A program made the position numbers and the translations under genes. DNA of 37,471 bases, from the NCBI GenBank assembly GCA_937870685.1, contig CALMZX010000138.1:1-37471 (forward strand). The letters run 5' to 3'. Of the stretch, positions 1,794-20,045 are shown in pieces (positions within the stretch are counted from its first letter, which is position 1; each line of letters begins with the position of its first letter). This DNA is from an uncultured Alphaproteobacteria bacterium (GTDB taxonomy: Bacteria; Pseudomonadota; Alphaproteobacteria; Rhizobiales; Aestuariivirgaceae). Under the pieces are notes generated by a model. The model made no database searches and was not told where the DNA came from. It was given only the letters and a program-made list of their open reading frames with translations.

Positions 1794-1796
1794 GCG

Positions 1797-6062: not shown

Positions 6063-6788
6063 TTACTGGAAGTCGGGGTTTTCCCAACCCGGCTCGCCAA
6101 GGCGTTCTTTCGGGGGCTTCATGCGCGACACGAAGTCGAGCACGGCAACGGTGTCCTCGTCGGTGAAGGTTTGGATCTGCTTCACCATGTCAGGGTTGGC
6201 ATTGCGGCGCTTGCCCTCCTTGATCCACTTGTACTGGCGCAGCAGATACTCATAGTGCTGGCCATAGATCGCGGGATAGAATTTCTCGTTGTTGCCATCG
6301 CCCGCCTCGCCATGGCAGCGCACGCAGTTGTCGGCATAGAGCTGCTTGCCCTTGTCAAGCATGGTGCCCGGCCCCACGCCATTCTCGGGATTCATGGGGA
6401 GTTGGGAAATGTAGGCGGCAACGTCTGCAATGGCCTGCGGTCCACCGATTTCGGAAGGCAGGGCAAACGGATACATGGTGGGGTTGTCGCGGTTGAGGGC
6501 GCGGATGTCGGCCAGCTGCTTGATCGCCACCTTGGCATGCTGGCCCGCGATTTGCGGAAAGGTTCCGTCCGGCAGTCCCCAGCCATTGATGCCGTGGCAG
6601 GCCGAGCAGACTTCGTAAACATCCTTGCCGTTTTCAAGATTGGGCGTGAGATGAAGCGCTTCATCCTGTTCTCCGCCGCCTTCGTTCCAGGTCTTGGGAG
6701 CCGTGGCAGGCGCATCTTCGGCAATGGCGAGCGGAGCCAAGACCACTCCGGCAATCAGGGCAAGGGTGGCAATTTTCAGAATGTTCAT
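6063..6788 (-). CDS. Dihaem c-type cytochrome (c4-like) of the nos operon
   Basis: Periplasmic electron carrier, probably between NosGH and NosZ, corresponding in position to the NosC1/NosC2 cytochromes of clade II operons. The 241 residues begin with a Sec signal ending near AIAED (20-24). Two haem-binding motifs are present, CSACH at 61-65 and CVRCH at 155-159, in two class I cytochrome domains of roughly 90 residues each, each with downstream methionines that could be axial ligands. The layout resembles cytochrome c4 rather than a single-haem carrier. A 20-base gap separates it from the next cytochrome gene upstream. Confidence 0.88.
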   Translation of the reverse strand: MNILKIATLALIAGVVLAPLAIAEDAPATAPKTWNEGGGEQDEALHLTPNLENGKDVYEVCSACHGINGWGLPDGTFPQIAGQHAKVAIKQLADIRALNRDNPTMYPFALPSEIGGPQAIADVAAYISQLPMNPENGVGPGTMLDKGKQLYADNCVRCHGEAGDGNNEKFYPAIYGQHYEYLLRQYKWIKEGKRRNANPDMVKQIQTFTDEDTVAVLDFVSRMKPPKERLGEPGWENPDFQ

Positions 6789-6808: not shown

Positions 6809-7456
6809 TTACTTGGCAGACCGGTCGATCTGCGAGAGATAGGTGGCCATGGCTTGGATGGCGGCGTCGTCCGCCTTCTTGATGATGTTGAGCATGAGTT
6901 TTGACTGGCCATTGACACGCAGTCCGTCCCGCATGTCGGTCATCTGGCGGACAAGGTAGTCCCGCTGCAGCCCTGCCAGATTGGGATAGGTCGGCACACT
7001 GGCCTTCTTGCCGTCAACGCCATGACACGCCACACAGCCAAGTTTCTTGTAAGTGGCCGCACCGTTGGCAAGGTCTTCCGCACTTGGCGCTGGCTCGATT
7101 GCCTTCGGCTTGGCAGGCGGTTGCGCCGCGAGGTACTTGGCGATCTTCTTGAGATCATCGTCCGTGAGAATGTGCATCACGGCGGCCATGCCTTCCGTAT
7201 AGGGATGTCCTGTCGCGGGATCCTTGCTCGCCACGCGCTTGCCTGACTTGATGTCCTGCAACTGGGTAAGAATGTACTTTTCGTTCTGCCCGGCAACGGC
7301 CGGGTAGCTCTGGATGGGCCGTGCGCCCTTGGAACCATGACAAGCCATGCAAGTCTTGGTCTTGTAGAGCTTCTCACCGTCGGCAACATCATCTGCAGCT
7401 GCCGAAACCGCGAACAGCGCCAGGCTGGCGAATGCGGTGAACAATAGTTTTCTCAT
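6809..7456 (-). CDS. Second dihaem c-type cytochrome (c4-like) of the nos operon
   Basis: A 215-residue periplasmic cytochrome with a Sec signal (MRKLLFTAFASLALFAVSAA) and two haem motifs, CMACH at 36-40 and CVACH at 141-145, each heading a class I cytochrome c domain with the c4-like phrase QNEKYILTQLQDIKSGKR. I chose the ATG at 7456 rather than upstream in-frame starts because the signal peptide begins exactly there. It directly follows nosZ, so it is the best candidate for the direct donor to the CuA site. A paralogue is the next gene downstream. Confidence 0.9.
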   Translation of the reverse strand: MRKLLFTAFASLALFAVSAAADDVADGEKLYKTKTCMACHGSKGARPIQSYPAVAGQNEKYILTQLQDIKSGKRVASKDPATGHPYTEGMAAVMHILTDDDLKKIAKYLAAQPPAKPKAIEPAPSAEDLANGAATYKKLGCVACHGVDGKKASVPTYPNLAGLQRDYLVRQMTDMRDGLRVNGQSKLMLNIIKKADDAAIQAMATYLSQIDRSAK

Positions 7457-7480
7457 GGAATGGTTCCCTGGTTTGAGGAC

Positions 7481-7502
7481 CGGGCGGCCCGCAGGCCGCC
7501 CG
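7481..7502 (-). other. Nine-base-pair GC hairpin between nosZ and the first cytochrome gene
   Basis: Perfect inverted repeat CGGGCGGCC / GGCCGCCCG with a CGCA loop in the 56-base gap between nosZ and the cytochrome gene. No T-run follows on the minus strand, so it is not a classical terminator. It could be a processing or stabilising element that sets the nosZ to cytochrome mRNA ratio. The function is an inference. Confidence 0.6.
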
Positions 7503-7512
7503 GCATGTGTCG

Positions 7513-9810
7513 TCACTGCACCTTCTTGGCGCCGTTCTGTTCGAGATAGGTCTTCACGCGCAGACCAATGTCTGCCGCCTTGACCTGGTACTGCCACCAC
7601 TGGCCAGCCCACAGGGTGGCATTCTGCCAATCCTGCTTCTTGGCGAAGTCTTCAGCCTTGGCCTTGGCCTCGCCGGCAAACTTCAGCTGGTCGGTCGCGT
7701 CTTCGACCAGCGCCACCGCATCCGGGAAGTCCTTGAAGTTCATGCTGGTGATGTAAGTCACCACGCTGTCAATGACGGCCTGGGTATCAGTGTTGGTCTT
7801 GAACTGCTTGTCGTAGTCAGCCTGGGTATAGGCTTGGCCTTCGGCACCCGTCGAAGCCTGTTCGACGAAGCCCTTCGGCTTGACCACCAGGAAGCCCGTC
7901 ATCTCGAGATGCAGCGCCGAGCAGAACTCGGTGCAGTAGTACGAGAAGACGCCTGGCTTGTCGGCCTTGATCTTGGCCGTTGCGGTCTTGCCAGGTTCAA
8001 GCGACAGGTTCACGCCGTAGGTGGAGATGGCGAAGCCGTGGGTTTCATCCTGGGCGCGTTCCGAGTTCGTGATCACGAACTCGACTTCGTCACCCTCTTC
8101 GACCTCAACGATTTCAGGCGTGAAGTGCGACCGGATCGCGGTCATGTAGACCTTGACCTTGTTGCCGTTACGCTCGACCTTTTCGCTGCCCGGACGCACC
8201 GCGTCCGGATGCTTTTCGCCCGTGCGGCTGTCGGTGCCGTACTTGTAGCGCACCAGCGGCTTCAGCTTGTCTGCGGCGATTGCTGTCGCATAATGCGGTT
8301 CGCCCAGCGGCAACGGCATGTCGTACAACAGCTCCATCTTCTCGCCGGAGATGTCGATCAGCTGGTGGTTCTGCGGATGCAGCGGGCCCACCGGGTTGAA
8401 GCGGTCAATGGCGAGCTTGTTGAGGGCAATGAGATACTTGCCAGCGGGATGGACGGTTTCGCCTTCCATCGCAACGAGGTGGCCGATATTGTAGTGCACG
8501 GAAATCTTGTCCAGCACCTTGCCTTCGCAATAGTCCCACTTCGCCACCTGGCTGTCGACGTAGAGCGAAGTGTAGACGACACACGGCTTGGAGTCATACT
8601 GCGAGTGCAACGGGCCAAGACCAAGTGGCACCTGCTTGTGCAAGGCATCTTCAAGCGCGATGATTGGCACGCCATAGGCGTCCTTGCCGGCAAACTTCTT
8701 GGCATCAATGGCTGCCTTGATCTTCTCGAACGAGTAGACCGACGCCTGCGTGTCAAGCTTGCCGCCAACCACGATGTACTTACCATCCGGAGAGACGTCG
8801 ACGCCATGTGGTGACTTCGGCTCGGCAACGAGCGCCAGAACACCTTCGTCAATCAGTGTCTGCATCGAAATCACGGCATGGTCATTGATCTTGCTGAACT
8901 TGCCAGCCTTGTAGAGTTCTTCCGCCTTCTTCCAGTTGATGATGTGGAGATAGTCGGTGTCGTTCTGCGAGCAGCCTGCTTCAAACGGGGGACGGCCGCG
9001 TTCGATGCCGCCGACATAGCGTTCCGAACAGAAGGAGTTGGTGAATGACCAGCCGTCGGAGACTAGCTTGCCGGCATCACTGAGGTCCTGCGTGTAGGGT
9101 GGCAGTTCAACCGAGAAGGAGTTTTCCGGTTCGATGCGACCCTTCTCGCGGTTGAACTTCCAGTAGGTAACGGCACCCCGGAACTTCTCGTTGAACTCCG
9201 AGAGCGGCGCAAAGCCGCGGCCAAGCACACCCGGATACTGCGCGGCTTCGATCACATACTCGCTGTTCGGCGTGACAAAGGCGCCACCATGCTCCGACTG
9301 CATGATCGGGTTGACGACGATCTGCTGCGTTTCGAAGTCATGCAGCGAGATGACGGCAATGCGCGGGGCGGACTTGTCGTTGATGAACAGGTACTGCCCG
9401 TCTTGGTCGCCATTGGTTTCGGTGATGGCGGGATGGTGGGTATCACCCCACGGCACGTCACGGCCATCGATCTTGCCCTGGGCAAGCACCTTCTTGGATT
9501 CTTCGTCATAGCCGTAGCCCTGCCAGGGTTCCGGCGTGAACACGGCGATGTACTTGAGAATGCGCATGGACGGCACGCCATACACGATGACCTGGCCGGA
9601 CTGGCCGCCGGACGAGAATACGATGAATTCGTCACGCTTTCCCGTGGGCGTGTAGGTCTTGGCGGCCGCGAGGAGGTCTTGTTGCGACAGGCCGCGGCGG
9701 GCCAGGACCTCATCAAGTGTTTCTGCCGAAGCCGTGCTGCCCGCCAGAATCAGGCCAAGTCCCGCGACGCCTGTTGCGGCGAGAAGGCCTTTGCGAAGGA
9801 TTTTATACAT
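7513..9810 (-). CDS. nosZ: Nitrous oxide reductase, clade II (Sec-exported) type
   Basis: Catalyses N2O + 2e- + 2H+ to N2 + H2O in the periplasm. The 765-residue protein has a plain Sec signal (no twin arginine) cleaved near ASAE (27-30), the mark of clade II. Seven candidate CuZ histidines lie in a seven-bladed propeller: H125/H126 (GDTHHP), H174 (EHGG), H335 (PHGV), H402, H444 (GHLV) and H506. The CuA cupredoxin domain has H591, C626, C630, H634 and M637 (CTEFCSALHLEM). After the CuA domain comes an extension of about 115 residues, mostly helical, with no CXXCH. An FNR-type box lies 126 bases upstream of the ATG at 9810. Confidence 0.97.
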   Translation of the reverse strand: MYKILRKGLLAATGVAGLGLILAGSTASAETLDEVLARRGLSQQDLLAAAKTYTPTGKRDEFIVFSSGGQSGQVIVYGVPSMRILKYIAVFTPEPWQGYGYDEESKKVLAQGKIDGRDVPWGDTHHPAITETNGDQDGQYLFINDKSAPRIAVISLHDFETQQIVVNPIMQSEHGGAFVTPNSEYVIEAAQYPGVLGRGFAPLSEFNEKFRGAVTYWKFNREKGRIEPENSFSVELPPYTQDLSDAGKLVSDGWSFTNSFCSERYVGGIERGRPPFEAGCSQNDTDYLHIINWKKAEELYKAGKFSKINDHAVISMQTLIDEGVLALVAEPKSPHGVDVSPDGKYIVVGGKLDTQASVYSFEKIKAAIDAKKFAGKDAYGVPIIALEDALHKQVPLGLGPLHSQYDSKPCVVYTSLYVDSQVAKWDYCEGKVLDKISVHYNIGHLVAMEGETVHPAGKYLIALNKLAIDRFNPVGPLHPQNHQLIDISGEKMELLYDMPLPLGEPHYATAIAADKLKPLVRYKYGTDSRTGEKHPDAVRPGSEKVERNGNKVKVYMTAIRSHFTPEIVEVEEGDEVEFVITNSERAQDETHGFAISTYGVNLSLEPGKTATAKIKADKPGVFSYYCTEFCSALHLEMTGFLVVKPKGFVEQASTGAEGQAYTQADYDKQFKTNTDTQAVIDSVVTYITSMNFKDFPDAVALVEDATDQLKFAGEAKAKAEDFAKKQDWQNATLWAGQWWQYQVKAADIGLRVKTYLEQNGAKKVQ

Positions 9811-9929
9811 TGTTTGCCCTCAAAATGGGGTCTGGATACGTGATTGTGCCCGGAACACCCCTTGGCGGCGTCAGGTCTTGCCACCCACCACCGCACGGTC
9901 CTCATCGCACTGCAGCAACATTCCCCGCC

Positions 9930-9943
9930 TTGACTTTCGTTAA
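9930..9943. promoter_or_regulatory. Imperfect FNR/DNR-type box between nosZ and the copper genes
   Basis: TTGACTTTCGTTAA, an imperfect version of TTGA-N6-TCAA (one mismatch in the right half-site). Its centre lies 126 bases upstream of nosZ and 72 bases upstream of the divergent DUF2946-like gene. The remainder of 9811-10008 shows no other clear palindrome. A Crp/Fnr-family gene with the matching recognition helix is encoded nearby. Confidence 0.6.
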
Positions 9944-10008
9944 GGTGGACAGCCCGCAAGCTTGGCAAATGTGACGCAGGCTGATTTCCCGTCAGCCGGA
10001 CCAGACTC

Positions 10009-10434
10009 ATGAATTGTCACATTGCCACATTCAGAAAACCGGCCATTCGCGCGCTGATCAGCCGCGTCGTGGGCGTGTTTTTGGTGTTGCAGGCCCTCAT
10101 CCCCGGAGTCCTTGCCTACTCCGCCGCGGAAGACGGCTTGTGGTGCCGGTCTGTGGCCACGGCAGTGCCTAGCGGTACGTCTCCTTCCGCCGGGCTGGAA
10201 CCCTGCCTTGTCTGTGTCGTCATGGCGTCCGGAAATGCGCCCCTGCCCGCCACCGCGCCGGAGTTTCCAGCCCCAGTGGTGGCGGCAGCGGCTGTCATTC
10301 CCTGCAATGCTGCCCTGAGCCTGCCGCAGCACGCGGCAGGAAGTTCGCCGCCCATTCGCGCACCACCCGCAGTCGCGATCGCCCAAACCGGTTTCAGGCC
10401 GGATTCCGGCATCGGCGGGTGTGCCCTCACCTGA
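10009..10434 (+). CDS. DUF2946-like secreted small protein next to a copper chaperone
   Basis: A 141-residue protein with one N-terminal hydrophobic segment (about 19-37, VVGVFLVLQALIPGVLAYS), a conserved-looking cysteine (LWCRS) and a CxxC pair in EPCLVCVVMASG, followed by a proline/alanine-rich tail. This arrangement (helix, Cys, then CxxC before a low-complexity tail) resembles the DUF2946 family, which is often found beside copper-handling genes; the biochemical role is not known. It is transcribed away from nosZ and sits 70 bases before the PCuAC gene, so both probably form one transcript controlled from the box at 9930-9943. No strong ribosome-binding site precedes the ATG. Confidence 0.65.
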   Translation: MNCHIATFRKPAIRALISRVVGVFLVLQALIPGVLAYSAAEDGLWCRSVATAVPSGTSPSAGLEPCLVCVVMASGNAPLPATAPEFPAPVVAAAAVIPCNAALSLPQHAAGSSPPIRAPPAVAIAQTGFRPDSGIGGCALT

Positions 10435-10504
10435 CCACACCGCCGGGAACCGGCCTGTCTCGTCAGCACCATTTGACCATCCAAAACCTGAAGGACTTTC
10501 GATC

Positions 10505-10960
10505 ATGAAACGCCGTACGTTTCTGCTGGCTGCAGTGTCTTGCGCCATGTTGCCCACACTTCCCGCCGTTGCGCAGGATGCATCTGCCGGTGGTCTCACA
10601 ATCACGCAAGGCTTTGCCCGTTCATCACCCATGATGGCCAATGCCGGAGCCGGATTCCTGACAATCACCAACGCCGGAGCCGCGGACAGGCTGCTCGCCT
10701 TCAAGACGGAGGCCTGCGAACAGCCGGAACTGCACACGCACATCGAGCAGGACGGCATGATGGCCATGCGCAAGGTTGACGCCATTGATGTGCCAGCCAA
10801 CAGCCAGACGGTCCTGGCCCCCGGTGGACTGCACCTCATGTTCATCGGCCTGAAGTCGCCGCTGCAGGAAGGCGGCCAGGTCGCCGTGACACTCGTCTTC
10901 GAAAAGGCTGGCGAAATTGCCGTTTCTCTGCCCGTCAAGGGCCCCGGTGCCATGAACTGA
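10505..10960 (+). CDS. PCuAC-family periplasmic copper chaperone
   Basis: Periplasmic Cu(I) chaperone (PCuAC, DUF461) that supplies CuA sites. The 151-residue product contains the exact family spacing H77-x10-M88-x21-H110-x-M112. The N-terminus MKRRTFLLAA carries a twin-arginine-like motif ahead of a hydrophobic core that ends in AVAQD. The start at 10505 is supported by an AAGGA ribosome-binding site 8-12 bases upstream; longer in-frame extensions lack one. Context (nosZ, SCO, NosL) suggests that it feeds the CuA site of NosZ. A close relative elsewhere could serve cytochrome oxidase instead. Confidence 0.93.
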   Translation: MKRRTFLLAAVSCAMLPTLPAVAQDASAGGLTITQGFARSSPMMANAGAGFLTITNAGAADRLLAFKTEACEQPELHTHIEQDGMMAMRKVDAIDVPANSQTVLAPGGLHLMFIGLKSPLQEGGQVAVTLVFEKAGEIAVSLPVKGPGAMN

Positions 10961-10983
10961 AAAAAGTCGACATCGCACAAGAA

Positions 10984-11024
10984 AAGCCCGGTTCGCGATT
11001 GCCCCGCGGGCCGGGTTGACTTTT
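10984..11024 (+). terminator. Possible weak terminator after the PCuAC gene
   Basis: An imperfect hairpin (AGCCCGG pairing with CCGGGTT, loop about 18 bases) followed by GACTTTT, 24 bases after the PCuAC stop. It merges into the regulatory palindrome for the next gene, so the T-run may simply be part of that box. Confidence 0.35.
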
Positions 11025-11029
11025 GTCAA
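11016..11029. promoter_or_regulatory. Perfect FNR/DNR-type box ahead of the four-cysteine secreted protein gene
   Basis: TTGACTTTTGTCAA is a perfect TTGAC-N4-GTCAA palindrome. Its centre is 66 bases upstream of the ATG at 11089, a usual distance for activation by an FNR/DNR-family protein. Confidence 0.8.
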
Positions 11030-11088
11030 TGCTGTCACAGTCCCGGCTACCGATAAGTGTCGCAACGCCACCCGACGGGAACCATGCC

Positions 11089-11511
11089 ATGAAACGCCTC
11101 GCCACGCTCTGTCTCGCCACTCTCCTGTTGATGTCTGCAGCACATGCCGAGGATGAATTCTTTGATCCAGACTACCAAGGCAGCGAAGTTGTCTCCGATG
11201 GCAAGGGGCAAGTGCATGTGAAGGTCGTCTTCTTCCCGAATGAAGATTGCTGGTCATTTGCAGGCCTGCGCGAAGGCGTGCCGGACAAGGTGGCGGACCA
11301 GCCCACCGAGCGGCACCTCTATGTCACTGTGAACGTCGCCAAGACAAAGCCGGACTGTCACCTCACCAGCGCTTTCCTGCAGGATCAGATCGTGATCCCT
11401 GACAGGAAGGGCAAGATCAGCCTGGACATCTTCTTCCTGGATGAGCGGGGCGTGCTGGTGCGTTCGCAGCGCCATCGCATCCAGAGGGACACCTGCACGG
11501 CGTCATGCTGA
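11089..11511 (+). CDS. Unknown secreted four-cysteine protein, probably in the denitrification regulon
   Basis: I do not recognise the family. The 140-residue product has a clear Sec signal (MKRLATLCLATLLLMSAAHA, cleavage after residue 20) and a mature part of about 120 residues rich in beta-strand patterns (QVHVKVVFFP, HLYVTVNVA, KISLDIFFLDERGVLVRSQ). There are four mature cysteines: C54, C90, C136 and a C-terminal C140; C136-x3-C140 is the last motif. An immunoglobulin-like or cupredoxin-like sandwich is possible but unproven. The start is supported by GACGGGA ahead of the ATG and by the signal peptide. The stop abuts the menA stop on the opposite strand with no gap. A perfect FNR-type box lies 66 bases upstream. 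Confidence 0.85.
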   Translation: MKRLATLCLATLLLMSAAHAEDEFFDPDYQGSEVVSDGKGQVHVKVVFFPNEDCWSFAGLREGVPDKVADQPTERHLYVTVNVAKTKPDCHLTSAFLQDQIVIPDRKGKISLDIFFLDERGVLVRSQRHRIQRDTCTASC

Positions 11512-12429
11512 TCAGCGGGCCGTGGCTCCGGACAGGGCCAGTGCCAGAAACAGGGCGAACTGCAGCAACACCGTCAGGGGCAGAAAGCGGTTGATCCCGG
11601 CGGATACAGGCGTGCGCCACACCCCCACCGCAAGAAACACCGCTGCAAGCATCGCCACGGCGCCAAGAGTGGCTGCCAGCGGTGACAGGCGCACAATCAC
11701 AGGCAGCATCGCCACAGCCGCGGCCACGAGTGCAGCATAAAGGAACCGCGCACCGCTTGTGCCCACAAGAATGGCCAGCGTTCGCCGTCCGGCAGCCGCA
11801 TCTGTCTGCCGGTCTCTGTGATTGTTGAGAAGAAGAACGGCGCCGGAGGGAAGTCCCATCATCACGCCAGCAAGAACGCCCTGCCATGACGGGAAGGCCC
11901 CGAGAACATGCGCCGTGCCCATCACTGCAATGACACCGAAGAATGCAATGACGATCACTTCTCCCAGCGGTGTATGTGACAGTGGCACCGGACCCATGGA
12001 ATAGGAATAGCCGAGCAGAAGGGCGAGCAGACCGATGACAACGATCGGCCAGCCACCCGCAACAACAAGCGGCAGGCCCGAGGCCACCGCAGCCGCAAAG
12101 GCAAGGGCAGCCCCCCGTTTCACAGTTGATCCATCAAGCAGGCCAAGTGCCGTCATGCGCGGCGGTCCAAGCCGTTCAGCCGTATCCGTGCCACGCTCGG
12201 CATCAGCCGCGTCATTCCAGAGATTGGTGCCAACCTGGATGCCAACCGCCGACAAGGCGGCAAGCACGGCAAGCCACGGATCAACAGGAACCGACTGCGC
12301 CGCAACCCAGGTGCCGCACATGACTGGCGTCACCGAGAGACCAACGGTTTTGAAGCGTGCCGCGATCACCCAGCGGAGCGGCGCTGGCAGCCGGGCCAGT
12401 TTCTCAATCACATCGGTCTGGCTGCTCAT
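11512..12429 (-). CDS. menA: MenA-type 1,4-dihydroxy-2-naphthoate polyprenyltransferase
   Basis: Integral membrane prenyltransferase that attaches the polyprenyl tail to 1,4-dihydroxy-2-naphthoate, giving demethylmenaquinone. The 305-residue protein has about eight hydrophobic helices, the first Asp-rich motif NLWNDAADAERGTDT (69-83), the MenA phrase LGEVIVIAFFG (155-165), and the second motif LLNNHRDRQTDAAAGRRTL (200-218), which is distinctive for MenA rather than UbiA. The length matches MenA. The ATG overlaps the menG stop (ATGA). Context with menG and the respiratory genes supports menaquinone synthesis. Alternative: another UbiA-superfamily enzyme; I judge that unlikely. Confidence 0.88.
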   Translation of the reverse strand: MSSQTDVIEKLARLPAPLRWVIAARFKTVGLSVTPVMCGTWVAAQSVPVDPWLAVLAALSAVGIQVGTNLWNDAADAERGTDTAERLGPPRMTALGLLDGSTVKRGAALAFAAAVASGLPLVVAGGWPIVVIGLLALLLGYSYSMGPVPLSHTPLGEVIVIAFFGVIAVMGTAHVLGAFPSWQGVLAGVMMGLPSGAVLLLNNHRDRQTDAAAGRRTLAILVGTSGARFLYAALVAAAVAMLPVIVRLSPLAATLGAVAMLAAVFLAVGVWRTPVSAGINRFLPLTVLLQFALFLALALSGATAR

Positions 12430-13199
12430 GCGCGCGCTTCCGCCACATGCAGAGCGGCAACACCAAACATGAAGCGGCGCACCGTCACATCGGCGAACCC
12501 CGCGGCCTGAAGCTCCCGCGTGATGCTGTCGGCATCCGGGAACAGGCGGATCGATTCCACCAGATAGCGATAGGCCCCGCGGTTTCCGGACACGGCCGCT
12601 CCCAGCGCCGGAATGGCAAAGCGGGAAAACAGGTCATAGAAGGGGGCAAACCATGCACTTGGCTTGGAGAACTCAAGCAGGATCAGATGGCCGTCGGGTT
12701 TGAGAATGCGCGCCACTTCCCGCAGGGCCTGCGGCGGGTCAGTCATGTTGCGCAATCCAAAGGACAACATGACGGCCTCTGCCGAACCTGAGCCAAATGG
12801 CAGATCTTCTGCTTCCGCCACGATGCACTCGAAACCGCCTTTGGCGCGCTCCTTCGCCACCGAAACCATGCCGGGGCTTGCATCAGCAAGAATGATCCGT
12901 GCGTGAGGCAGACGGTGCCGCAAAGCAAGGGCGAGATCCCCTGTGCCTCCAGCAAGGTCAATCACGGTTCCTTCCTCAACTCCGGGTGCCGACGCAGCGG
13001 CAAGAACGGCGGCACGCTTCCACAATCTGTGCAGCCCGAAACTCATCAGATCATTCATGAGGTCATAGCGCGGCGCCACGCGGTCGAAGAGGTCACGCAC
13101 AAATGCCTTCCGCTCGGCACGCTCGGCACGTGCGGCCCCAATGGTACCGCCAAGGGGGGCGAGCGAATCGAGACGTTTCAGGGCGGGATCTTCACTCAC
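12426..13199 (-). CDS. menG: UbiE/MenG demethylmenaquinone methyltransferase
   Basis: SAM-dependent C-methyltransferase that converts demethylmenaquinone to menaquinone (and, in dual-function UbiE enzymes, also acts in ubiquinone synthesis). The 257 residues show the UbiE entry motif FDRVAPRYDLMNDLMSFGLHR, SAM motif I DLAGGTGDLAL, the phrase FGLRNMTDPPQALREVARIL and the C-terminal YRYLVESIRLFPD. Translation probably starts at GTG 13199, overlapping the sco stop (GTGA); its stop overlaps the menA start. The neighbours favour the menaquinone role, hence the symbol, but sequence alone cannot separate MenG from dual UbiE. Confidence 0.87.
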   Translation of the reverse strand: MSEDPALKRLDSLAPLGGTIGAARAERAERKAFVRDLFDRVAPRYDLMNDLMSFGLHRLWKRAAVLAAASAPGVEEGTVIDLAGGTGDLALALRHRLPHARIILADASPGMVSVAKERAKGGFECIVAEAEDLPFGSGSAEAVMLSFGLRNMTDPPQALREVARILKPDGHLILLEFSKPSAWFAPFYDLFSRFAIPALGAAVSGNRGAYRYLVESIRLFPDADSITRELQAAGFADVTVRRFMFGVAALHVAEARA

Positions 13200-13774
13200 T
13201 TCAGCACGGCCTGGAGTTTCGCCAGCATGGCCTCCGGCGTGGCGTTGTGGGTGAATTGTGTCACGAACGCGCCATCACGGTTCATGACATAAACCACCGA
13301 AGTGTGATCAATCGCATAGTCATCACGGCTGGTGTCTCCGGCAATCCGATAGCGTGCGCCATAGGCCTTCGCCACAGCATCAATCTGTTCTCGCGGGCCC
13401 GTCAAGCCTGTGATCAGGGGATGGAATGCGCTGCCGTATTCCGAAAGCCGCGCACCATGGTCGCGTTGCGGATCGACCGAGATGAAGACGACGGCGAGTT
13501 GGTCAAGCTGCGCCTTGTCGAGACGGTCAAGCACGGACGACAGTTTGCCCAGCGCCGTGGGGCAGACGTCCGGGCAGAACGTATAACCGAAATAGACCAG
13601 CAGGAAACGCCCGCGAAAATCGCGGTCACTGACAGGATTGCCCTTGCCATCCAGGAGGGCAAAGGGCCCACCAATCCGAGGCTCGGGCGCACGTGACCAC
13701 CACCAGCCTCCAGCCGCGGCTGCGAGAGCGAGTGATGTGACGGCGAGATGGCGTCTTGTGATGGGTGGCGACAT
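13196..13774 (-). CDS. SCO1/SenC-family copper protein
   Basis: Membrane-anchored periplasmic thioredoxin-fold protein that inserts copper into CuA sites or reduces their cysteines. The 192-residue form starting at the ATG at 13774 has an N-terminal segment with TRRHLAV and a hydrophobic stretch to residue 26, then the copper-binding C67-P-D-V-C71 and the third ligand H157 (AIDHTSV). In-frame sequence further upstream is low-quality and runs over the regulatory box. It heads an operon with menG and menA. In this setting the likely client is the CuA site of NosZ, although cytochrome oxidase is possible. Confidence 0.92.
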   Translation of the reverse strand: MSPPITRRHLAVTSLALAAAAGGWWWSRAPEPRIGGPFALLDGKGNPVSDRDFRGRFLLVYFGYTFCPDVCPTALGKLSSVLDRLDKAQLDQLAVVFISVDPQRDHGARLSEYGSAFHPLITGLTGPREQIDAVAKAYGARYRIAGDTSRDDYAIDHTSVVYVMNRDGAFVTQFTHNATPEAMLAKLQAVLK

Positions 13775-13825
13775 GGCGGATTCTGTGTGTTCCCCCCACA
13801 TTATGCCGGGCTCCACAGCCCTGAA

Positions 13826-13839
13826 TTGACCAAACTCAA
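13826..13839. promoter_or_regulatory. FNR/DNR-type box between sco-menGA and the regulator gene
   Basis: TTGACCAAACTCAA matches TTGA-N6-TCAA. Its centre lies 58 bases upstream of sco on the minus strand and 57 bases upstream of the regulator gene on the plus strand, so one site could serve both, including autoregulation. Confidence 0.7.
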
Positions 13840-13889
13840 ATTGCCCCACCCCCTCAAAACCTCTATGCGGAAGTCCCCTGGAGCCCCCC

Positions 13890-14612
13890 ATGCAACTTTC
13901 GATTTCCGCGCCGGAATTCAAGATCATCCGCGAGACCGCCCTGCTCGGCGGCCTGTCGGACGCGGCCCTGCGCAACATCATCAGCGACTCGACCATCCAC
14001 CAGTTCGCGCGTGGCCAGTCCCTCTTCACGCAAGGCGATCAGGCGGACGCATTTTTTGTCGTGCTGGATGGCTGGATCAAGCTCTTCCGCTTGACCAGCA
14101 GCGGCACCGAAGCGGTGATCGGCATCTTCACCAAGGGCCAGAACTTCGCGGAAGCGGCAGCCTTCACAGGCGGCGTCTATCCTGTCAGCGGGGAAGCTGT
14201 CACCGATGCCCGCCTGTTGCGTGTCTCCGCCCGCAGGCTGTTCGACCGCATCCGCGAGTCGCCGGAAATCGGCCTTGCCATGCTGGCCTCCACCTCGCAG
14301 CACCTGCATCTTCTGGTGCGCCAGATCGAGGCGCTCAAGGCCCACACGGGCGCGCAGCGCATAGCGGAATTCCTGCTTGAACTGGCCCCCAAGGGGGAAC
14401 GCAAATGTGTTGTTGATCTGCCCTATGACAAGGCATTGATTGCCGCGCGCCTTGGCATGAAGCCGGAAAGCCTGTCACGCGCCTTCAACCGCCTTGCTGA
14501 CTATGGTGTTTCCATCGTGCAGCGTCAGGCCGTGATTGACGATCTCGACCGCCTGCAGGACTTTGCCGAACGCGAGCGGGCCGAGATCATGCGCGGACGC
14601 AGCGACGACTGA
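13890..14612 (+). CDS. Crp/Fnr-family transcription regulator, DNR/NnrR-like
   Basis: Regulator of denitrification genes. The 240 residues comprise a cNMP-type beta-barrel (about 20-120), a long dimerisation helix (125-150) and a winged helix-turn-helix. The recognition helix reads KPESLSRAF with E193, S196 and R197, the ExxSR signature that reads TTGA half-sites in FNR-type proteins. No N-terminal cysteine cluster exists (the only cysteine is near residue 173), so it is not an oxygen-sensing FNR; the NO-responsive DNR/NnrR group fits. Four matching boxes lie in the window, one 57 bases upstream of this gene. Its stop is two bases from the convergent norF stop. Confidence 0.9.
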   Translation: MQLSISAPEFKIIRETALLGGLSDAALRNIISDSTIHQFARGQSLFTQGDQADAFFVVLDGWIKLFRLTSSGTEAVIGIFTKGQNFAEAAAFTGGVYPVSGEAVTDARLLRVSARRLFDRIRESPEIGLAMLASTSQHLHLLVRQIEALKAHTGAQRIAEFLLELAPKGERKCVVDLPYDKALIAARLGMKPESLSRAFNRLADYGVSIVQRQAVIDDLDRLQDFAERERAEIMRGRSDD

Positions 14613-14614
14613 AC

Positions 14615-14866
14615 TCAGGCCATGGCGGCCAGCGCGGCCATGACCAGAAGCAGCGCGACAAGTGCCGCCATGGCGCCCACACGCCACTCATCCGCATGGC
14701 GCAGTTCGAGATAGTCGAGAAGGACCAGCCGCGCCTTGACGAAGGACGCGGCCATGATGAGGACAAGCCACACGGGGCGAGGCAGCCCGGGCGCAACCGC
14801 GAGCACCAGCGCCACGGTGATGACAACCATGGACATCACCAGCCAGCTTCGTGTCAACTGCGTCAT
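14615..14866 (-). CDS. norF: NorF-like small membrane protein (cytochrome oxidase subunit IV family)
   Basis: An 83-residue protein with three hydrophobic helices (about 8-27, 29-46 and 62-82) and the conserved-looking phrase LVLLDYLELRHADEWR, as in prokaryotic COX4/NorF proteins that accompany cNOR operons. Overlaps the norE stop by four bases. The exact role in nitric oxide reductase activity or assembly is not settled for the family. Confidence 0.8.
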   Translation of the reverse strand: MTQLTRSWLVMSMVVITVALVLAVAPGLPRPVWLVLIMAASFVKARLVLLDYLELRHADEWRVGAMAALVALLLVMAALAAMA

Positions 14867-15402
14867 CTCGGCACCAGATAGAGAACGGGAAAGACCAGCA
14901 CCCAGACCAGATCGACCATGTGCCAGAAGGCAACCGAAGGCTCGACATGTTCAAGCGTCGGGCGCAGCGACACGACAAGCAGCAGGCCAGTGCCAAACGC
15001 CACGTGGGCCGCATGAAAGCCGGTGATCAGTGCATAAAGCGTGAAGAACTGGCTGCCTTCGAATGCGACCCCCCTGTTCCAGAGGTCACTGTACTCCATG
15101 GCCTTCAGGGCGAGGAACAGCACGCCCAGCAAGGCGGCAAGAATCAGGAGAAGACGGCTTCTGCTTTGTCCGCCTTGTTGTGAGTTGGATTGCGCGATGG
15201 CAGCGAGATATCCGCTCGTCAGGAGAAGTGCCATGGAGAGCGTTCCGGCACCGGCGTGCAACAGGTGGGAAGCTGCCTGAAACTCCCGCAGGTGCAGCAG
15301 GCGCATCACCAGAAACGCCACCAGCCCCAAGGCAAAGACAAGCACCTCCGACACGATGAGAATCCAGATCAACGAATTGCCCGGCAGTCCCTTTTTCGCC
15401 AT
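14863..15402 (-). CDS. norE: NorE, cytochrome oxidase subunit III-like membrane protein
   Basis: A 179-residue membrane protein with five predicted helices. The haem-copper oxidase subunit III pattern is visible: WILIVSEVLVFALGLVAFL at the start, a middle ALKAMEYSDLW, and the family motif YALITGFHAAHVAFG near 122-136 plus SVAFWHMVDLVWVLVFP at the end. NorE accompanies NorCB and improves nitric oxide reductase function in denitrifiers. Starts immediately after norD (the ATG shares bases with its stop). Confidence 0.88.
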   Translation of the reverse strand: MAKKGLPGNSLIWILIVSEVLVFALGLVAFLVMRLLHLREFQAASHLLHAGAGTLSMALLLTSGYLAAIAQSNSQQGGQSRSRLLLILAALLGVLFLALKAMEYSDLWNRGVAFEGSQFFTLYALITGFHAAHVAFGTGLLLVVSLRPTLEHVEPSVAFWHMVDLVWVLVFPVLYLVPR

Positions 15403-17333
15403 CAGCTGACCAGATGCCGGTAGATTCCGGGCAGCGCTTCCGCCAGCCGCGACGGGTGGCTGACGATATGGAAGCCGTTGCGGCCAAAGATGTGCGGCAC
15501 GTAGGCTTCGGCGCGGCGGTCGATGGTGATCGCAAACACGGCAAGCCCCGCCATGCGGGCCTCCAGAACCGCGCGGCGCGTGTCCTCGATGCCGAAGCGT
15601 CCTTCATAGTGGTCGATGTCGTTTGGCTTTCCGTCAGTCACGACCAGCAGCAGGCGGCGGAGCGCACCGTGGCTGCGCAGGTCCTGTGTCGCCTGGCGGA
15701 TGGCTGCACCAAGCCGCGTGTAATGCCCCGGTCTCAGCGCAAGAATGCGCTCCAGTATTGCGGGTGAGAGCGCTTCTCCAAAACCCTTAACCCGGTCATA
15801 GAAGACCCTGTCGCGCCGGACCGACGAGAACGTGGCAATGGCATGGGCATCACCCGTGGCGGCGAGGCCATGCGCCATCGCCAGCAGCGTTTCCCTGGCG
15901 ATGTCGATGATGGAGCGCTCCTCCGCCACGCCTTCGGTCGAGCGGGAGACATCGGCCAGCGTCAGCACCGCGAGATCCCGCGCCACCGGGCGGAGCGCCT
16001 TGAAGATCCGGCCGTCATTGGCAACGCCTGCGCGGGTATCGGCCGCCATGCGCAGGGCACCATCGAGATCAAGTTCGCTGCCCGCATCTTCTCCCGCCTG
16101 CAGGGCATGGCGGGGAATGAGCGCCTCAAACTGGCGGCGCACCCGCGCAACGAGCCGCCCCTGGGCGGGGGACAATTGCGGCGGCGTACCGCTTTCCGCG
16201 CCCTTGGCCAGACCTGCGAGCACGCGCACATGGTCTGGCAGATAGCTGTTGCTGCGCCAGTCCCATTCGGGAAACAGGTTGCCGTCTGTCAGCGTGGCAC
16301 GATCAAGTTCCTGGGGCGAGAGATCAAGGTCAAAGGCAATCCGAGAAGACGGTTTCGCATCCGTGTCAGCGAGACCCAGTTCGTCCTGGTCATCGGCGGC
16401 CTTTCGCGCCGTTTCGCCATCGTCATCCTCCACCTTCCGGCCCAGGTTGAACATTTCGGCCCAGGTCTTGATGGTTTCGAAACGGTGCAGGATCAGCGGA
16501 TCGCGCCTCCGGGCCTGGTCAGATGCCTTGCGGCGTGCCCGCTTGCGTGGACCCTGCTCCTGTGATTTGGCTCCCGCCGGAGCAGCATCATCTCGTGGCG
16601 CGGCCTCGCCGGCGGGCCGTAGCGACCACTGTGGCCAGTGTGGCACTGGCGCATGGGGACAGTAGCCGGATGGAGCCCGCACGCTGCCGTCCAGCACCGT
16701 GTCACCGGTCACAAAGTTCCACCAAGGCTCTGGCGTGGTTTCATCAGCGCCCAACAGGCGGCGGATGACACGTTCAACATCCATCTCAATGGGCGGCAGT
16801 TGGGCAACACGCCTGCCAGTCAGCGCCGCCGCATCGAGTACACGCCCGACCGCAGTGAGACCCGGCGCGCACCTCTCCATCATCTTCGTGCAGCGCCACG
16901 CCTGCCGAAGCGCATGAAGGTCTCGCCGCAGCGGATCAGCTTCCAGGTCCCGTGCCTCATAAGACGCGGCCCAGGCCGCAAGCCAGAGATAGGCCGCCTC
17001 GTTCAGCGCAGCATCACGGCTGAAGGCCATGGCCTCTGGAACGTTCAATGTCTCACCGTCCCACGTCGGCTGCAGGATTCTTTCACCGGCATGGCCAATT
17101 CTCTGCAGGAAGCGGCGGCGGTGCTGGGTCTGGCTGGCCTGCAGGGCCGCAAATCCGGCACCCGGCTCCCCCCCAAGGCCACGCATCACGATGCCCATGC
17201 GAGGACGCATGTGTTCAAGCGTCGCTGCGGCGGGATTTTCGGCAGATGATGGGTCACGGTCACCGACCAGCCGGTGCCACAGCGAGCCGATCGCTTCCTC
17301 TGGTTCCCAGGGTTTGGGATGAAGCTCTGCCAT
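15402..17333 (-). CDS. norD: NorD, VWA-domain protein for nitric oxide reductase activation
   Basis: Cytoplasmic MoxR-partner protein needed to assemble or activate NorCB, perhaps by inserting the non-haem iron. The 643 residues have a long N-terminal helical part, a charged middle linker (about 255-320, with RKRARRKASDQARRR), and a C-terminal von Willebrand A domain from about residue 450 with MIDAS motif LADVSRSTEG and a second motif VTDGKPNDID. The size matches NorD. It lies five bases after norQ, the usual AAA-ATPase partner. Confidence 0.93.
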   Translation of the reverse strand: MAELHPKPWEPEEAIGSLWHRLVGDRDPSSAENPAAATLEHMRPRMGIVMRGLGGEPGAGFAALQASQTQHRRRFLQRIGHAGERILQPTWDGETLNVPEAMAFSRDAALNEAAYLWLAAWAASYEARDLEADPLRRDLHALRQAWRCTKMMERCAPGLTAVGRVLDAAALTGRRVAQLPPIEMDVERVIRRLLGADETTPEPWWNFVTGDTVLDGSVRAPSGYCPHAPVPHWPQWSLRPAGEAAPRDDAAPAGAKSQEQGPRKRARRKASDQARRRDPLILHRFETIKTWAEMFNLGRKVEDDDGETARKAADDQDELGLADTDAKPSSRIAFDLDLSPQELDRATLTDGNLFPEWDWRSNSYLPDHVRVLAGLAKGAESGTPPQLSPAQGRLVARVRRQFEALIPRHALQAGEDAGSELDLDGALRMAADTRAGVANDGRIFKALRPVARDLAVLTLADVSRSTEGVAEERSIIDIARETLLAMAHGLAATGDAHAIATFSSVRRDRVFYDRVKGFGEALSPAILERILALRPGHYTRLGAAIRQATQDLRSHGALRRLLLVVTDGKPNDIDHYEGRFGIEDTRRAVLEARMAGLAVFAITIDRRAEAYVPHIFGRNGFHIVSHPSRLAEALPGIYRHLVS

Positions 17334-17338
17334 GGGCG

Positions 17339-18151
17339 TCAGCCCAGGGTGGCCGAGACCAGGTCGCGCAGCCCCTGCATCACCGCCGTGTCGTCACTCA
17401 GCGGCTGCAGCATCGCAATGTCGATGGCCCGCTCCAGACTCATGCCGTCCACGATCAGTGTCGCGGCATAGATCAGAAGCCGCGTCGAAGCCGCCTCCTC
17501 CACGTCCCTTCCGCGCAGGGCGCGCAGGCGTGTTGCCACCTGCACCAGCAGCTTGGCCCGCTCGATCGGAAGGCCACTCTCTGCGGAGACGATGGCCGCC
17601 TCGCGTTCCTCGCGCGGGAAGCCGAACTCGATTCCGACAAAGCGCTGCCGTGTCGAGGGCTTCAAGGCCTTGAGGACATTCTGGTAACCCGGGTTGTAGC
17701 TGGCGACCACCATGAAGGACGCAGGAGCCACAAGCGTCTCTCCGGTGCGGTCAAGCAGCAGCGTGCGGCGGTCATCGGTGAGCGGATGGAGAACAACGGT
17801 CACGTCCTTCCGCGCCTCCACCACCTCGTCGAGATAGCAGATGCCACCGGCGCGCACCGCCGCAGTCAGCGGCCCGTCGCACCAGACGGTTTCCCCACCC
17901 TTGAGCAGGAAGCGCCCCGTGAGGTCTGCCGATGTGAGGTCATCATGGCAGGCGACGGAGAACAGCGGCAAGCCCAGCCTTGCCGCCATATGGGCGACAA
18001 AGCGGGTCTTGCCGCATCCGGTTGGCCCCTTGAGCAGAAGGGGAAGCCGGTTGCGCCACGCCGCTTCAAAGACGCGGCACTCGTCGCCTGTCGGTGCGTA
18101 GTAGGGCACCGGATGCGAAGCCGTGTCAGGTGTCTTCATGGCATATGACAT
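17339..18151 (-). CDS. norQ: NorQ, MoxR-family AAA ATPase
   Basis: AAA+ ATPase that acts with NorD to mature nitric oxide reductase. The 270-residue form starts at the ATG at 18151; a longer in-frame extension runs antiparallel into norB and is spurious. Walker A GPTGCGKT lies at 42-49, Walker B reads GGICYLDEV, sensor 1 ASYNPGYQ, and the tail has the MoxR-like lid with STRLLIYAATLI. There are 14 bases between the norB stop and this start. Confidence 0.94.
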   Translation of the reverse strand: MSYAMKTPDTASHPVPYYAPTGDECRVFEAAWRNRLPLLLKGPTGCGKTRFVAHMAARLGLPLFSVACHDDLTSADLTGRFLLKGGETVWCDGPLTAAVRAGGICYLDEVVEARKDVTVVLHPLTDDRRTLLLDRTGETLVAPASFMVVASYNPGYQNVLKALKPSTRQRFVGIEFGFPREEREAAIVSAESGLPIERAKLLVQVATRLRALRGRDVEEAASTRLLIYAATLIVDGMSLERAIDIAMLQPLSDDTAVMQGLRDLVSATLG

Positions 18152-18165
18152 GGCGCTTCTTCCCC

Positions 18166-19512
18166 TTACTCGGCGGGTGCTGCTGCCGGGTTGACAGTTT
18201 CTATCACCTCGCGGCGCGGCACGAAGGTGGCATAGATGAAGAGCAGCGCTCCAAGCACCACCACCACGCCCGAGCCGAGGCGCATCCAGTAGAACAGCGA
18301 GAGCTGGTCCTGCACATCCATGAAACCCTGCCCAAGGACGCGCTGCAGATGGGTCTGCACCACACCCGCAAAGGTCAGGGTGAAGGTCATGAAGGACATG
18401 CCCGAAGCCATCAGCCAGAAACTCGCCATGTTCAGAACCTGGTTGTAGGGCCTGCGGCCCAGCAGGTACGGCATGGCATAGGTGATGATCGCGAGGTTCA
18501 TCGAGACATAGGCACCGAAGAAGGCGAGATGTCCGTGCGCCGCTGTCACCTGGGTGCCGTGGGTATAGTAGTTCATCGGTGCCAGCGTGTGCATGAAGCC
18601 CCACACGCCAGCCCCGAAGAAGGCCAGCACCGAGCAGCCGAGCGCCCAGAGCAGGGCGGCCTTGTTGGGATGTTCGCGGCGGCCCTTCCAGACCATCACG
18701 AAGGTAAACATCACCATGGCGAAGAAAGGCAGGATTTCCAGCGCCGAGAAGATGGAACCGATCCACTGCCAGTAGCCCGGCGTACCGATCCAGTAATAGT
18801 GGTGACCCGTGCCGAGAAGTCCGGTGAAGAGCGCAAGCGCCACGATGACATAGAGCCATTTCTCCACGACTTCGCGGTCAACCCCGGTGAGTTTGAGCAT
18901 CATGAAGGCAAGAACCGATGCCATCACGAGTTCCCACACGCCTTCCACCCAGATGTGGACGACATACCACCAGTACATCTTGTCAACGGTCAGGTTGGCC
19001 GGATTGTAGAGGGAAAAGAGGAAGAACAGCGCGATGCCCCAGAGACCGAGCAGCAGCACGTTGGTGATGACGGTCTTGCGCCCCTGCAGCACTGTCATGG
19101 TGACATTGTAGAGGAAGATCAGCGCGGCAACCACAATGCCAAGCTTGACCCACAAGGGCTGTTCAAGGAACTCGCGGCCTTCATGGATGCGAAAGAGATA
19201 GCCGATCACCGCCGCACTGGCCCCCACCATCAGAAGAACCAGCTGGATGTAGGCCAGCTTGGGTGAGTGCAGCTCACGTTCCGTCTCTTCCGGGATGAGA
19301 TAGTAGGACGCGCCGAAGAAGCCGAGCAACAGCCAGACCACCAGCGCATTGGTGTGAATCATGCGCGCGATGTTGAACGGCAGCAGTTCCGACAGGAAGT
19401 TCGGTGCGACGTAGATGTATCCCAGCACCAGTCCGAATGTGACTTGTGCCGCGAACAGGATCATGGCGCAGGCGAAATATGCGAGTGCGACTTTTTGCGA
19501 TTGGTATTTCAT
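18166..19512 (-). CDS. norB: NorB, catalytic subunit of cytochrome c-dependent nitric oxide reductase
   Basis: Reduces 2 NO to N2O in the cytoplasmic membrane with electrons from cytochrome c via NorC. The 448 residues have about 12 helices with all key ligands visible: H53 (low-spin haem b), H186 plus E190 and E194 (HIWVEGVWE, FeB site), H237/H238 (GTGHHYYW, FeB), H326 and H328 (AAHGHLAFFG, haem b and b3). The absence of an N-terminal extension with a quinol site marks it as cNOR, as does the adjoining norC. The start at 19512 has an upstream GGGAGG-type ribosome-binding site. Confidence 0.97.
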   Translation of the reverse strand: MKYQSQKVALAYFACAMILFAAQVTFGLVLGYIYVAPNFLSELLPFNIARMIHTNALVVWLLLGFFGASYYLIPEETERELHSPKLAYIQLVLLMVGASAAVIGYLFRIHEGREFLEQPLWVKLGIVVAALIFLYNVTMTVLQGRKTVITNVLLLGLWGIALFFLFSLYNPANLTVDKMYWWYVVHIWVEGVWELVMASVLAFMMLKLTGVDREVVEKWLYVIVALALFTGLLGTGHHYYWIGTPGYWQWIGSIFSALEILPFFAMVMFTFVMVWKGRREHPNKAALLWALGCSVLAFFGAGVWGFMHTLAPMNYYTHGTQVTAAHGHLAFFGAYVSMNLAIITYAMPYLLGRRPYNQVLNMASFWLMASGMSFMTFTLTFAGVVQTHLQRVLGQGFMDVQDQLSLFYWMRLGSGVVVVLGALLFIYATFVPRREVIETVNPAAAPAE

Positions 19513-19526
19513 GATTGCCTCCCTTC

Positions 19527-19979
19527 TCAGCCGCTGTCCTTGGGCGGCCAGCCCTGGGTGTTGATTTTGCTGACCCATTCAAGAAAGTCCGCGAGGTCAT
19601 TGAGTTCGGGATCGGTCAGTTGGAAATTCGGCATCTGGCGGCGCCCGGGAATGCCCGACGGCTGGCTGGTCATCCACGCCTTGATGGCTTCCTTGGCGCC
19701 GGCCGGATCATCCTTGCCGCCGTAGCGGACGAAGACATTGCCAAGTTCGGGCGCGTAGTAGGCGCCTTCACCGAGAATTGTATGGCAGTTGATGCACGCA
19801 TGCTTTTCCCAGATGCGTTTGCCCCGGACGACGGCGTCCGTCAGGTTCTGCGCGTTGGTGGATTTGCTCACGGCATAGTAGTGGCTGTGGCCCGTCAAGG
19901 CCGCAAAGACCACAAAGAAGAACAGTGAACCGCCGAAGAAGATGTTGCGCGCTTGGGATTTTGTCAGGCCTTCACTCAT
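19527..19979 (-). CDS. norC: NorC, membrane-anchored cytochrome c subunit of nitric oxide reductase
   Basis: Electron-entry subunit of cNOR. The 150-residue protein has one N-terminal membrane anchor (about 14-35, FFGGSLFFFVVFAALTG), the haem motif CINCH in HACINCHTILGEGAYYAPEL, and a distal methionine in GRRQMPNF for axial ligation. The ATG at 19979 is preceded by a strong GGGGAGGAGG ribosome-binding site. A perfect FNR-type box is centred 73 bases upstream. Confidence 0.96.
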   Translation of the reverse strand: MSEGLTKSQARNIFFGGSLFFFVVFAALTGHSHYYAVSKSTNAQNLTDAVVRGKRIWEKHACINCHTILGEGAYYAPELGNVFVRYGGKDDPAGAKEAIKAWMTSQPSGIPGRRQMPNFQLTDPELNDLADFLEWVSKINTQGWPPKDSG

Positions 19980-20045
19980 GGCTGTATTGCCTCCTCCCCA
20001 CATGTTTCGCCCAGTGTCAGTTAAGCTGACGGGGCAAGGGAAGAC

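Follow-up and report, generated by a model that had tools for sequence, protein, structure and literature searches.

Last-step menaquinone genes in a clade II nos cluster of an uncultured alphaproteobacterium: a candidate module for precursor salvage

The window analysed here, the whole 37,471 nucleotides of contig CALMZX010000138.1 from an uncultured Alphaproteobacteria bacterium (assembly GCA_937870685.1), raises the question of why the last two genes of menaquinone synthesis, menG and menA, lie beside a nos cluster for nitrous oxide (N2O) reduction. The electron path to clade II NosZ, the N2O-removing enzyme, is not settled, and comparative genomics links this path to menaquinone genes in bacteria where ubiquinone is usual. 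We consider it reasonably probable that the pair is part of a module that salvages a menaquinone precursor, is linked to the clade II nos cluster and supplies menaquinol to NosGH. The missing part of the module is probably a transporter, and a BASS-type transporter encoded outside the window is likely to be this part.

The pair is located between the nosZ cluster and the nor operon, together with sco. All three genes are on the minus strand, and the open reading frame (ORF) calls overlap by four bases at both the sco/menG and the menG/menA junction.

11512-12429, minus strand: menA, 1,4-dihydroxy-2-naphthoate (DHNA) prenyltransferase of the UbiA superfamily (TIGR00751 above cut-off, PF01040)
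12426-13199, minus strand: menG, UbiE/MenG-type quinone methyltransferase, the second copy of the genome (TIGR01934 above cut-off)
13196-13774, minus strand: sco, SCO1/SenC copper chaperone (PF02630, 152.3 bits), starting at an internal ATG of a longer ORF
13826-13839, no strand: FNR/NnrR-type box TTGACCAAACTCAA, TTGAN6TCAA, between sco and crp; the consensus is the one we take to be that of FNR/NnrR
13890-14612, plus strand: divergent regulator of the Crp/Fnr family (PF00027 and PF13545)

This arrangement, with the four-base overlaps and the FNR-type box, had been proposed in an earlier, sequence-only reading of the DNA, and the ORFs, the family models and the box agree with it. The menG-menA pair adjoins nos genes in seven of the eight first-listed loci (L012-L018, with clade I nosRZ in L018), so the placement is not a matter of chance; in the eighth, L011, it is found near cbb3 genes.

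The menG-menA pair and the origin of DHNA

MenA obtains 127.9 bits with TIGR00751 (cut-off 102.15) and does not reach the best equivalog model, NF004751 (215.4 bits, cut-off 264). MenG obtains 230 bits with TIGR01934 (cut-off 158.35), reaches none of the equivalog models, and also matches the methyl-plastoquinone model MpqE below its cut-off. A better UbiE is encoded elsewhere in the genome (G000:C56, 281.7 vs 192.2 bits), i.e. the second ubiE that the sequence-only reading had thought worth searching for is present.

Twelve MenA residues (R25, Q65, N69, N72, D73, D76, R91, N202, N203, R205, D206, D210), corresponding to the two Asp-rich motifs and invariant positions, are identical in 31/31 orphan proteins, where an orphan is a genome with MenA and without MenD, and in 13/13 MenA rows of MenD-positive species. 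In a quick tree, calculated without the loci L049, L067, L070, L082, L106, L107 and L112, the MenAs of G494 and G665 and the second MenA of G448, the orphan MenAs intermingle with those of MenD-positive species, and the MenA of MenD-positive Rhodobium nests among the orphans. Because of the identical motif residues and this mixing, it appears unlikely that the protein is a non-quinone UbiA, and both proteins look like a genuine MenA and MenG/UbiE. We also disfavour another UbiA-family enzyme in the place of MenA, as the protein scores as MenA and two other UbiA-family genes of the genome outscore it on PF01040. The listed MenA matches contain no internal stops. A second menA copy is found in G448 (G448:C64, L150), distant from the nos genes.

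No known route to DHNA was found in the genome of the window (G000), a 92% complete assembly resembling a metagenome-assembled genome (MAG); the searches bear on known routes only. MqnA/D gave no match in any of 18 genomes, which include G000 and the eight genomes first listed for their MenA, G001-G008 (one Hyphomicrobiales MAG, three uncultured Alphaproteobacteria MAGs, Sinirhodobacter sp., Defluviimonas nitratireducens, Sedimentimonas flavescens and Aliiroseovarius crassostreae), and in none of G000-G008 was MenD or MenB above cut-off. MenD is above cut-off in 6 of the 18 genomes; MenB, searched in 20, passes in these same six, which include the positive control Rhodobium orientis (G009). 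MenD-like matches below cut-off, at most 94 bits, occur in the 18 genomes and are read as other enzymes of that large family. The futalosine route was rejected, as no MqnA/D was above cut-off in sets of 18 and 29 genomes, with one weak match below it in G653. The orphan state is common to relatives, which makes an assembly gap unlikely. The genome thus has the gene content of DHNA salvage: MenA and MenG are present and DHNA-forming genes were not found.

The sequence-only reading had seen in the locus a respiratory module that carries or controls its own quinone. The last two steps are indeed present, but no known DHNA route was found, so the module carries these two steps and not its own quinone. 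That reading had named two findings that would speak against it. As far as the known routes go, no upstream pathway was found in the genome, which is half of the first, the other half being absence of menaquinone from the cells; the second, a MenA placed in a non-quinone UbiA group, is not what the tree gives.

Clade II nosZ and menaquinone genes across the order

The distribution of the genes was followed in 297 evenly drawn genomes of the same order as the window, using our own MenA profile (E 1e-30), a MenD limit of E 1e-60 and, for clade II nosZ, at least 69% identity to the NosZ of the window. MenA is present in 32 of the 297 genomes and clade II nosZ in 20. Among the latter, 19/20 have MenA, vs 13/277 of the others (Fisher p 1.5e-20). 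MenA is found in 2/46 genomes with only low-identity nosZ, which are taken as clade I-like from their 35-44% identity to the NosZ of the window and not from a model. The 20 clade II genomes come from 12 genera, and every genus has one or more MenA-positive members among them. The eight other sampled genomes of the window's own genus have neither nosZ nor MenA. MenA is rare in the class as a whole, 5/385 genomes at E 1e-15, two of the five being weak.

Fifteen of the 19 genomes with both MenA and clade II nosZ are without MenD and four have it. For 13 of these 15 orphans, the window included, nos genes are located no more than about 10 kb from menA on the same contig; in G461 and G693 nosZ is on a different contig from menA. 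An orphan menA only a few kb away from nos genes also occurs in a Gammaproteobacteria MAG (G010).

The nos cluster of the window belongs to clade II, the Sec type, as the sequence-only reading had implied: TIGR04246 is above cut-off for nosZ, and nosG and nosH are in the cluster.

7513-9810, minus strand: nosZ, Sec-dependent (clade II) nitrous oxide reductase (TIGR04246, 875 bits, cut-off 625)
2771-3571, minus strand: nosG, NapG-like ferredoxin (Fer4 domains; NapG models matched below cut-off)
1797-2774, minus strand: nosH, NapH-like quinol-dehydrogenase ferredoxin (TIGR02163, NapH/MauN, 232.9 bits, cut-off 213.05)

In the four MenD-positive clade II genomes (G459, G495, G563, G652) menA and nosZ are on separate contigs. 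In G652, however, the 8 kb beside nosZ are filled by menF, menD and menB (above cut-off) and menC and menE (somewhat below), plus sco.

L248 (G652:C46), 9781-17040 and 17922-20000: menC, menB, menD, menF, sco and menE, up to the clade II nosZ

In Rhodobium, a species with MenD and MenB, a menG/UbiE gene (G459:C62, L252, 11543-12310) is located 0.8 kb upstream of clade II nosZ; G459 is treated as the same Rhodobium genome as G009. Three different arrangements therefore join clade II nos to menaquinone genes in this order, which is the strongest argument for menaquinone as the product and for its use by Nos. As the pair look like real MenA and MenG, and given the co-occurrence in 19/20 genomes, the quinone link to Nos suggested by the sequence-only reading is likely, although not as a module with its own quinone.

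A transporter that accompanies menA

According to a clustering of the neighbourhoods, a gene of the SBF/BASS family (PF01758) adjoins menA in several families. In L011, where gene names were read from translations, the BASS ORF overlaps the start of menG, so that BASS, menG and menA form one operon, with fnr-like and cbb3 genes close by. Using a profile built from seven BASS proteins of this kind, a first search identified a relative in 26/26 orphan genomes, 2/5 MenD-positive genomes and 1/15 hand-picked controls without MenA. In the order sample it is present in 23/24 orphans, 5/8 MenD-positive genomes and 18/265 genomes without MenA (orphans vs MenA-less, p 7e-22), and in 9/10 orphans when the genera that supplied the profile are left out (p 2e-9).

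In a quick tree of the BASS proteins, 29 orphan rows (28 of the 32 orphan genomes having a match) and two Rhodobium rows form one clade with SH-aLRT 96. None of the 18 rows from MenA-less genomes falls inside it, that of G471 being its sister, and the BASS of MenD-positive G429 groups among the MenA-less rows. The tree was made without the orphan genomes G546, G636, G670 and G693 and the MenD-positive G505 and G535, and a second BASS of G516 is ungrouped. When trees of MenA and BASS were compared for 28 genomes (FastTree), 17 of 25 splits agreed, and the correlation of distances, 0.56, was not attained in any of 2000 permutations. The common splits include {Rhodobium, G448}, excluding G413 of the same genus as Rhodobium. 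A common species history would account for part of the agreement but hardly for the pairing of Rhodobium with G448.

Of the 32 orphan genomes with a BASS match, 28, G000 included, have the gene beside menA or on a contig that also carries nos genes. In eleven genomes (G001-G007, G413, G484, G653, G685) the order nosY, TlpA-like gene, sco, BASS is found at the end of the nos cluster; in G428, G534, G562 and G646 BASS is upstream of nosZ, and it adjoins menA in G415, G423, G461, G494 and eight g344 genomes. BASS is absent from all 71 MenA loci L020-L090, whose flanks extend up to 10 kb and often less. No BASS match was obtained in G563 or G652, which have MenD and clade II nosZ, and in g344 menA and BASS occur together in seven genomes without a nosZ match and in G482, with low-identity nosZ only. 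BASS tracks menA rather than nos.

In the genome of the window the gene is on another, short contig:

G000:C93 (3,903 bases), 1396-2298, minus strand: BASS transporter, beside sco, a TlpA-like gene and the C-terminal part of nosY

Compared with the nosY of L215, residues 1-175 are encoded in the window and 167-303 on C93. No exact DNA overlap longer than 8 bases exists between the ends of C93 and the window; because nosY is split between both, C93 very probably continues the nos cluster of the window.

The protein obtains 81.5 bits with PF01758 (vs 24.3) and aligns over almost its full length with ASBT_NM (PDB 3zux, E 2.4e-24), with the Na+-site residues kept at the positions that we assume to form this site. 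Unlike ASBT_NM and PanS, it belongs to a clade of its own that is linked to menA, and it is below the cut-offs of the PanS model and of TIGR00841 (121.9 vs 326.3 bits).

The proposed salvage and the surrounding genes

In the proposed module, DHNA from neighbouring organisms would be imported by the BASS/SBF Na+ symporter (C93), prenylated by MenA and methylated by MenG to menaquinol; the final product may also be demethylmenaquinol. NosGH would oxidise this quinol and pass electrons through the nos cytochromes c to NosZ, and sco, the TlpA-like protein and PCuAC would serve the copper of NosZ. What the analysis shows is the gene content, the DHNA route that was not found, the co-occurrence, the linkage and the conserved MenA motifs. 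From these we infer DHNA as the substrate, menaquinone as the product and NosGH as the consumer, and the aligned residues suggest coupling to Na+. For the more specific proposal, that a dedicated family of DHNA-importing Na+ symporters travels with menA-menG in the clade II nos cluster of Alphaproteobacteria whose usual quinone is ubiquinone, and that their N2O reduction then depends on precursor from neighbours, we hold the chances to be evenly balanced.

Salvage of DHNA is known from Streptococcus agalactiae, and Wolinella succinogenes makes its own menaquinone. According to passages of PMC3475470, the nos cluster of W. succinogenes has two nosC downstream of nosZ, together with nosG and nosH, and NosGH is a quinone-oxidising module; the cluster of the window is alike in being clade II, with two cytochrome c genes downstream of nosZ and with nosG and nosH. 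Passages of PMC9704088 describe for Porphyromonas pasteri a DHNA salvage with MenA and MenG only, backed by growth tests: as in the window, the two genes from DHNA to menaquinone are kept, and five earlier ones are missing, and DHNA stimulates growth. Unlike in our case, growth of P. pasteri is supported by menaquinone and not by ubiquinone, these passages name no importer, and the pair of the window is tied to nos and accompanied by a transporter candidate. For gut bacteria with incomplete Men pathways, Ravcheev and Thiele (2016) proposed precursor exchange and, in the part of PMC4746308 concerned, stated that the transporters for soluble menaquinone precursors were yet to be predicted. The early steps are missing and MenA and MenG are present there too; here a candidate importer of the kind called for in that part of PMC4746308 is offered, for another group and setting. 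The legend of a figure in PMC12480950 lists DHNA and demethylmenaquinone among the abbreviations of a scheme of electron shuttling and denitrification. Among the titles, abstract beginnings and passages of open PMC papers that were covered (subscription papers not included) we found no earlier description of menA/menG or BASS in nos clusters. DHNA salvage is already known; what appears to be new is the candidate importer and the connection with N2O respiration. If the proposal is true, N2O reduction in such bacteria depends on their neighbours, with effects on culture media, bioaugmentation and emission models, and a greenhouse-gas sink is controlled by cross-feeding of a vitamin-K precursor.

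Several observations weigh against the proposed salvage for Nos. Many of the genomes belong to the same genera and are therefore not independent, some are MAGs, the trees are quick or FastTree ones, and among the orphans of the order sample MenB was searched in G000 only. One clade II nosZ genome, G525 (88% complete), has neither MenA nor BASS, and G665 has no BASS; its weak MenA (107.9 bits), counted as an orphan, may not be MenA. In G014, G015, G060 and G187 MenA occurs without MenD, MqnA/D or (where searched) MenB, and no BASS is seen in the flanks that were covered. BASS is unlinked in G448, G693 (contig edge), G008 and G010. Rhodobium, with MenD and MenB, still encodes a BASS belonging to this clade, at a distance of about 6 kb from its menA. 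The BASS family carries many anions, the substrate is not readable from sequence, and the PanS model also matches, below its cut-off. The g344 genomes keep menA and BASS without nosZ and without adjacent menG, which indicates that the module is not for Nos alone. In Aliiroseovarius (L018, 9204-17152) menG-menA is near nosR-nosZ of clade I, the twin-arginine translocation (TAT) type, and nor, with BASS on another contig, which weakens dependence on NosGH as the sole reason for the linkage. Finally, Paracoccaceae, the family of some orphans, are described with Q-10 in a part of PMC11092380; this description is probably from aerobic cells.

Some of these genomes deserve a further word. The arrangement in L018 looks as if clade II nos had been replaced. 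L145 (G060) and L146 (G187) come from a different family; one of the two genomes has a size of about 0.9 Mb and a listed completeness of 100%. The g344 loci L155, L156, L163 and L170-L174 have menA and BASS, mostly with pcuAC, and no clade II nosZ or adjacent menG.

Of the alternatives, a third, unrecognised route to DHNA survives best and is still unlikely: the strain would make DHNA itself, MenA and MenG would make menaquinone for Nos, and BASS would carry something else. The DHNA searches bear on known routes only, and several orphan genomes bear isolate strain names, arguing against strict dependence on neighbours. However, no candidate route was seen among the clusters listed in the neighbourhood clustering of 27 loci, in which some unlabelled clusters were identified, and a third route leaves the co-occurrence of BASS with MenA and the agreement of their trees unexplained.

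Next in order, and also improbable, the pair could act on another aromatic acid, imported or internal, giving a different lipoquinone or lipid used by Nos. The NF004751 score below cut-off, the sub-cut-off match of the UbiE-like protein to MpqE and the DHNA source not found in the genome would all fit, but the motif residues are common to MenAs of MenD-positive species, the Rhodobium MenA nests among the orphans, and G652 has men genes beside nosZ.

There is also a small chance that salvage of the quinone is real but serves other anaerobic enzymes, such as periplasmic nitrate reductase via NapC/NapGH, and that the linkage to nos is a by-product of anaerobic gene clustering. Among the clusters listed, one of NapC type occurs in 9/27 loci (Pfam-checked in L147, L149, L158, L161 and L165). 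Nitrate-reductase genes adjoin menG-menA in L147 (napA, napC), and L149 and L158 have them as well, judged by domains (molybdopterin-domain homologues). The quinone may therefore also be used in nitrate reduction:

L147 2513-8436, L149 1-5131, L158 12025-17836: periplasmic nitrate reductase genes near menG-menA (by model or domain)

The g344 genomes, with menA and BASS and no nos, and the L011 operon near cbb3 oxidase genes point the same way. Against this, the remaining 18/27 loci have no NapC-type cluster among those listed, and MenA is confined to 2/46 of the low-identity (clade I-like) nosZ genomes vs 19/20 of the clade II ones.

That the genes are relics or mis-binned and without function is very improbable: the assembly is MAG-like and 92% complete, and for G616 and G495 the listed BASS matches contain internal stops (though the G616 frame is open over 300 residues), but the listed MenA matches have none, the motif residues are kept in 31 orphan proteins, the overlaps are operon-like, and G516, G572, G594 and G616 are single-contig orphan genomes.

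The remaining genes of the nos cluster, and those around it, are the following.

2-526, minus strand: nosY, N-terminal part, truncated at the contig end (residues 1-175 of the L215 nosY)
927-1793, minus strand: nosF, ABC ATPase, named by position (PF00005)
3568-4842, minus strand: nosD (PF05048)
4842-6023, minus strand: conserved nos-cluster protein in the NosB position, kept beside nosZ in relatives
6063-6788, minus strand: second nos-cluster cytochrome c (PF00034)
6809-7630, minus strand: nos-cluster cytochrome c; coordinates of the listed ORF, whose real start is probably downstream (PF00034)
10421-10960, plus strand: pcuAC copper chaperone, near menA in many relatives (PF04314)
14615-20003, minus strand: nor operon, read as norF, norE, norD, norQ, norB, norC (PF03626, PF00510, PF08406, PF00115, PF00034)

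The ORF at 4842-6023 has no Pfam or NCBIfam match, and we read its position as that of NosB. The domains of the nor operon are COX4_pro, COX3, a NorQ-type AAA domain, COX1 and cytochrome c; the norD ORF has no NCBIfam match, and norD and the other single gene names are partly our assumption from gene order. Plasmid origin was rejected: a MenA search of plasmids gave 30 records, all below 60% identity and none with 80% coverage, and the island DNA matched just 57 bases of one plasmid record. No RNA element was found at 9800-15500 at the gathering score.

The window contains three sites of the TTGAN6TCAA type, compared with 0.53 expected, and three or more were obtained in 3/100 shuffles. In L012, L013, L014, L015 and L017 an FNR-type box precedes the point where sco or menG begins to align by no more than about 80 bases, and in L018 one is located about 0.55 kb from sco/menG; no such box was seen upstream of these genes in L011 or L016. 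A second FNR-type box of the window, at 11016-11029, is beside a small ORF (11023-11511) that has no family match, looks secreted and is conserved in L012.

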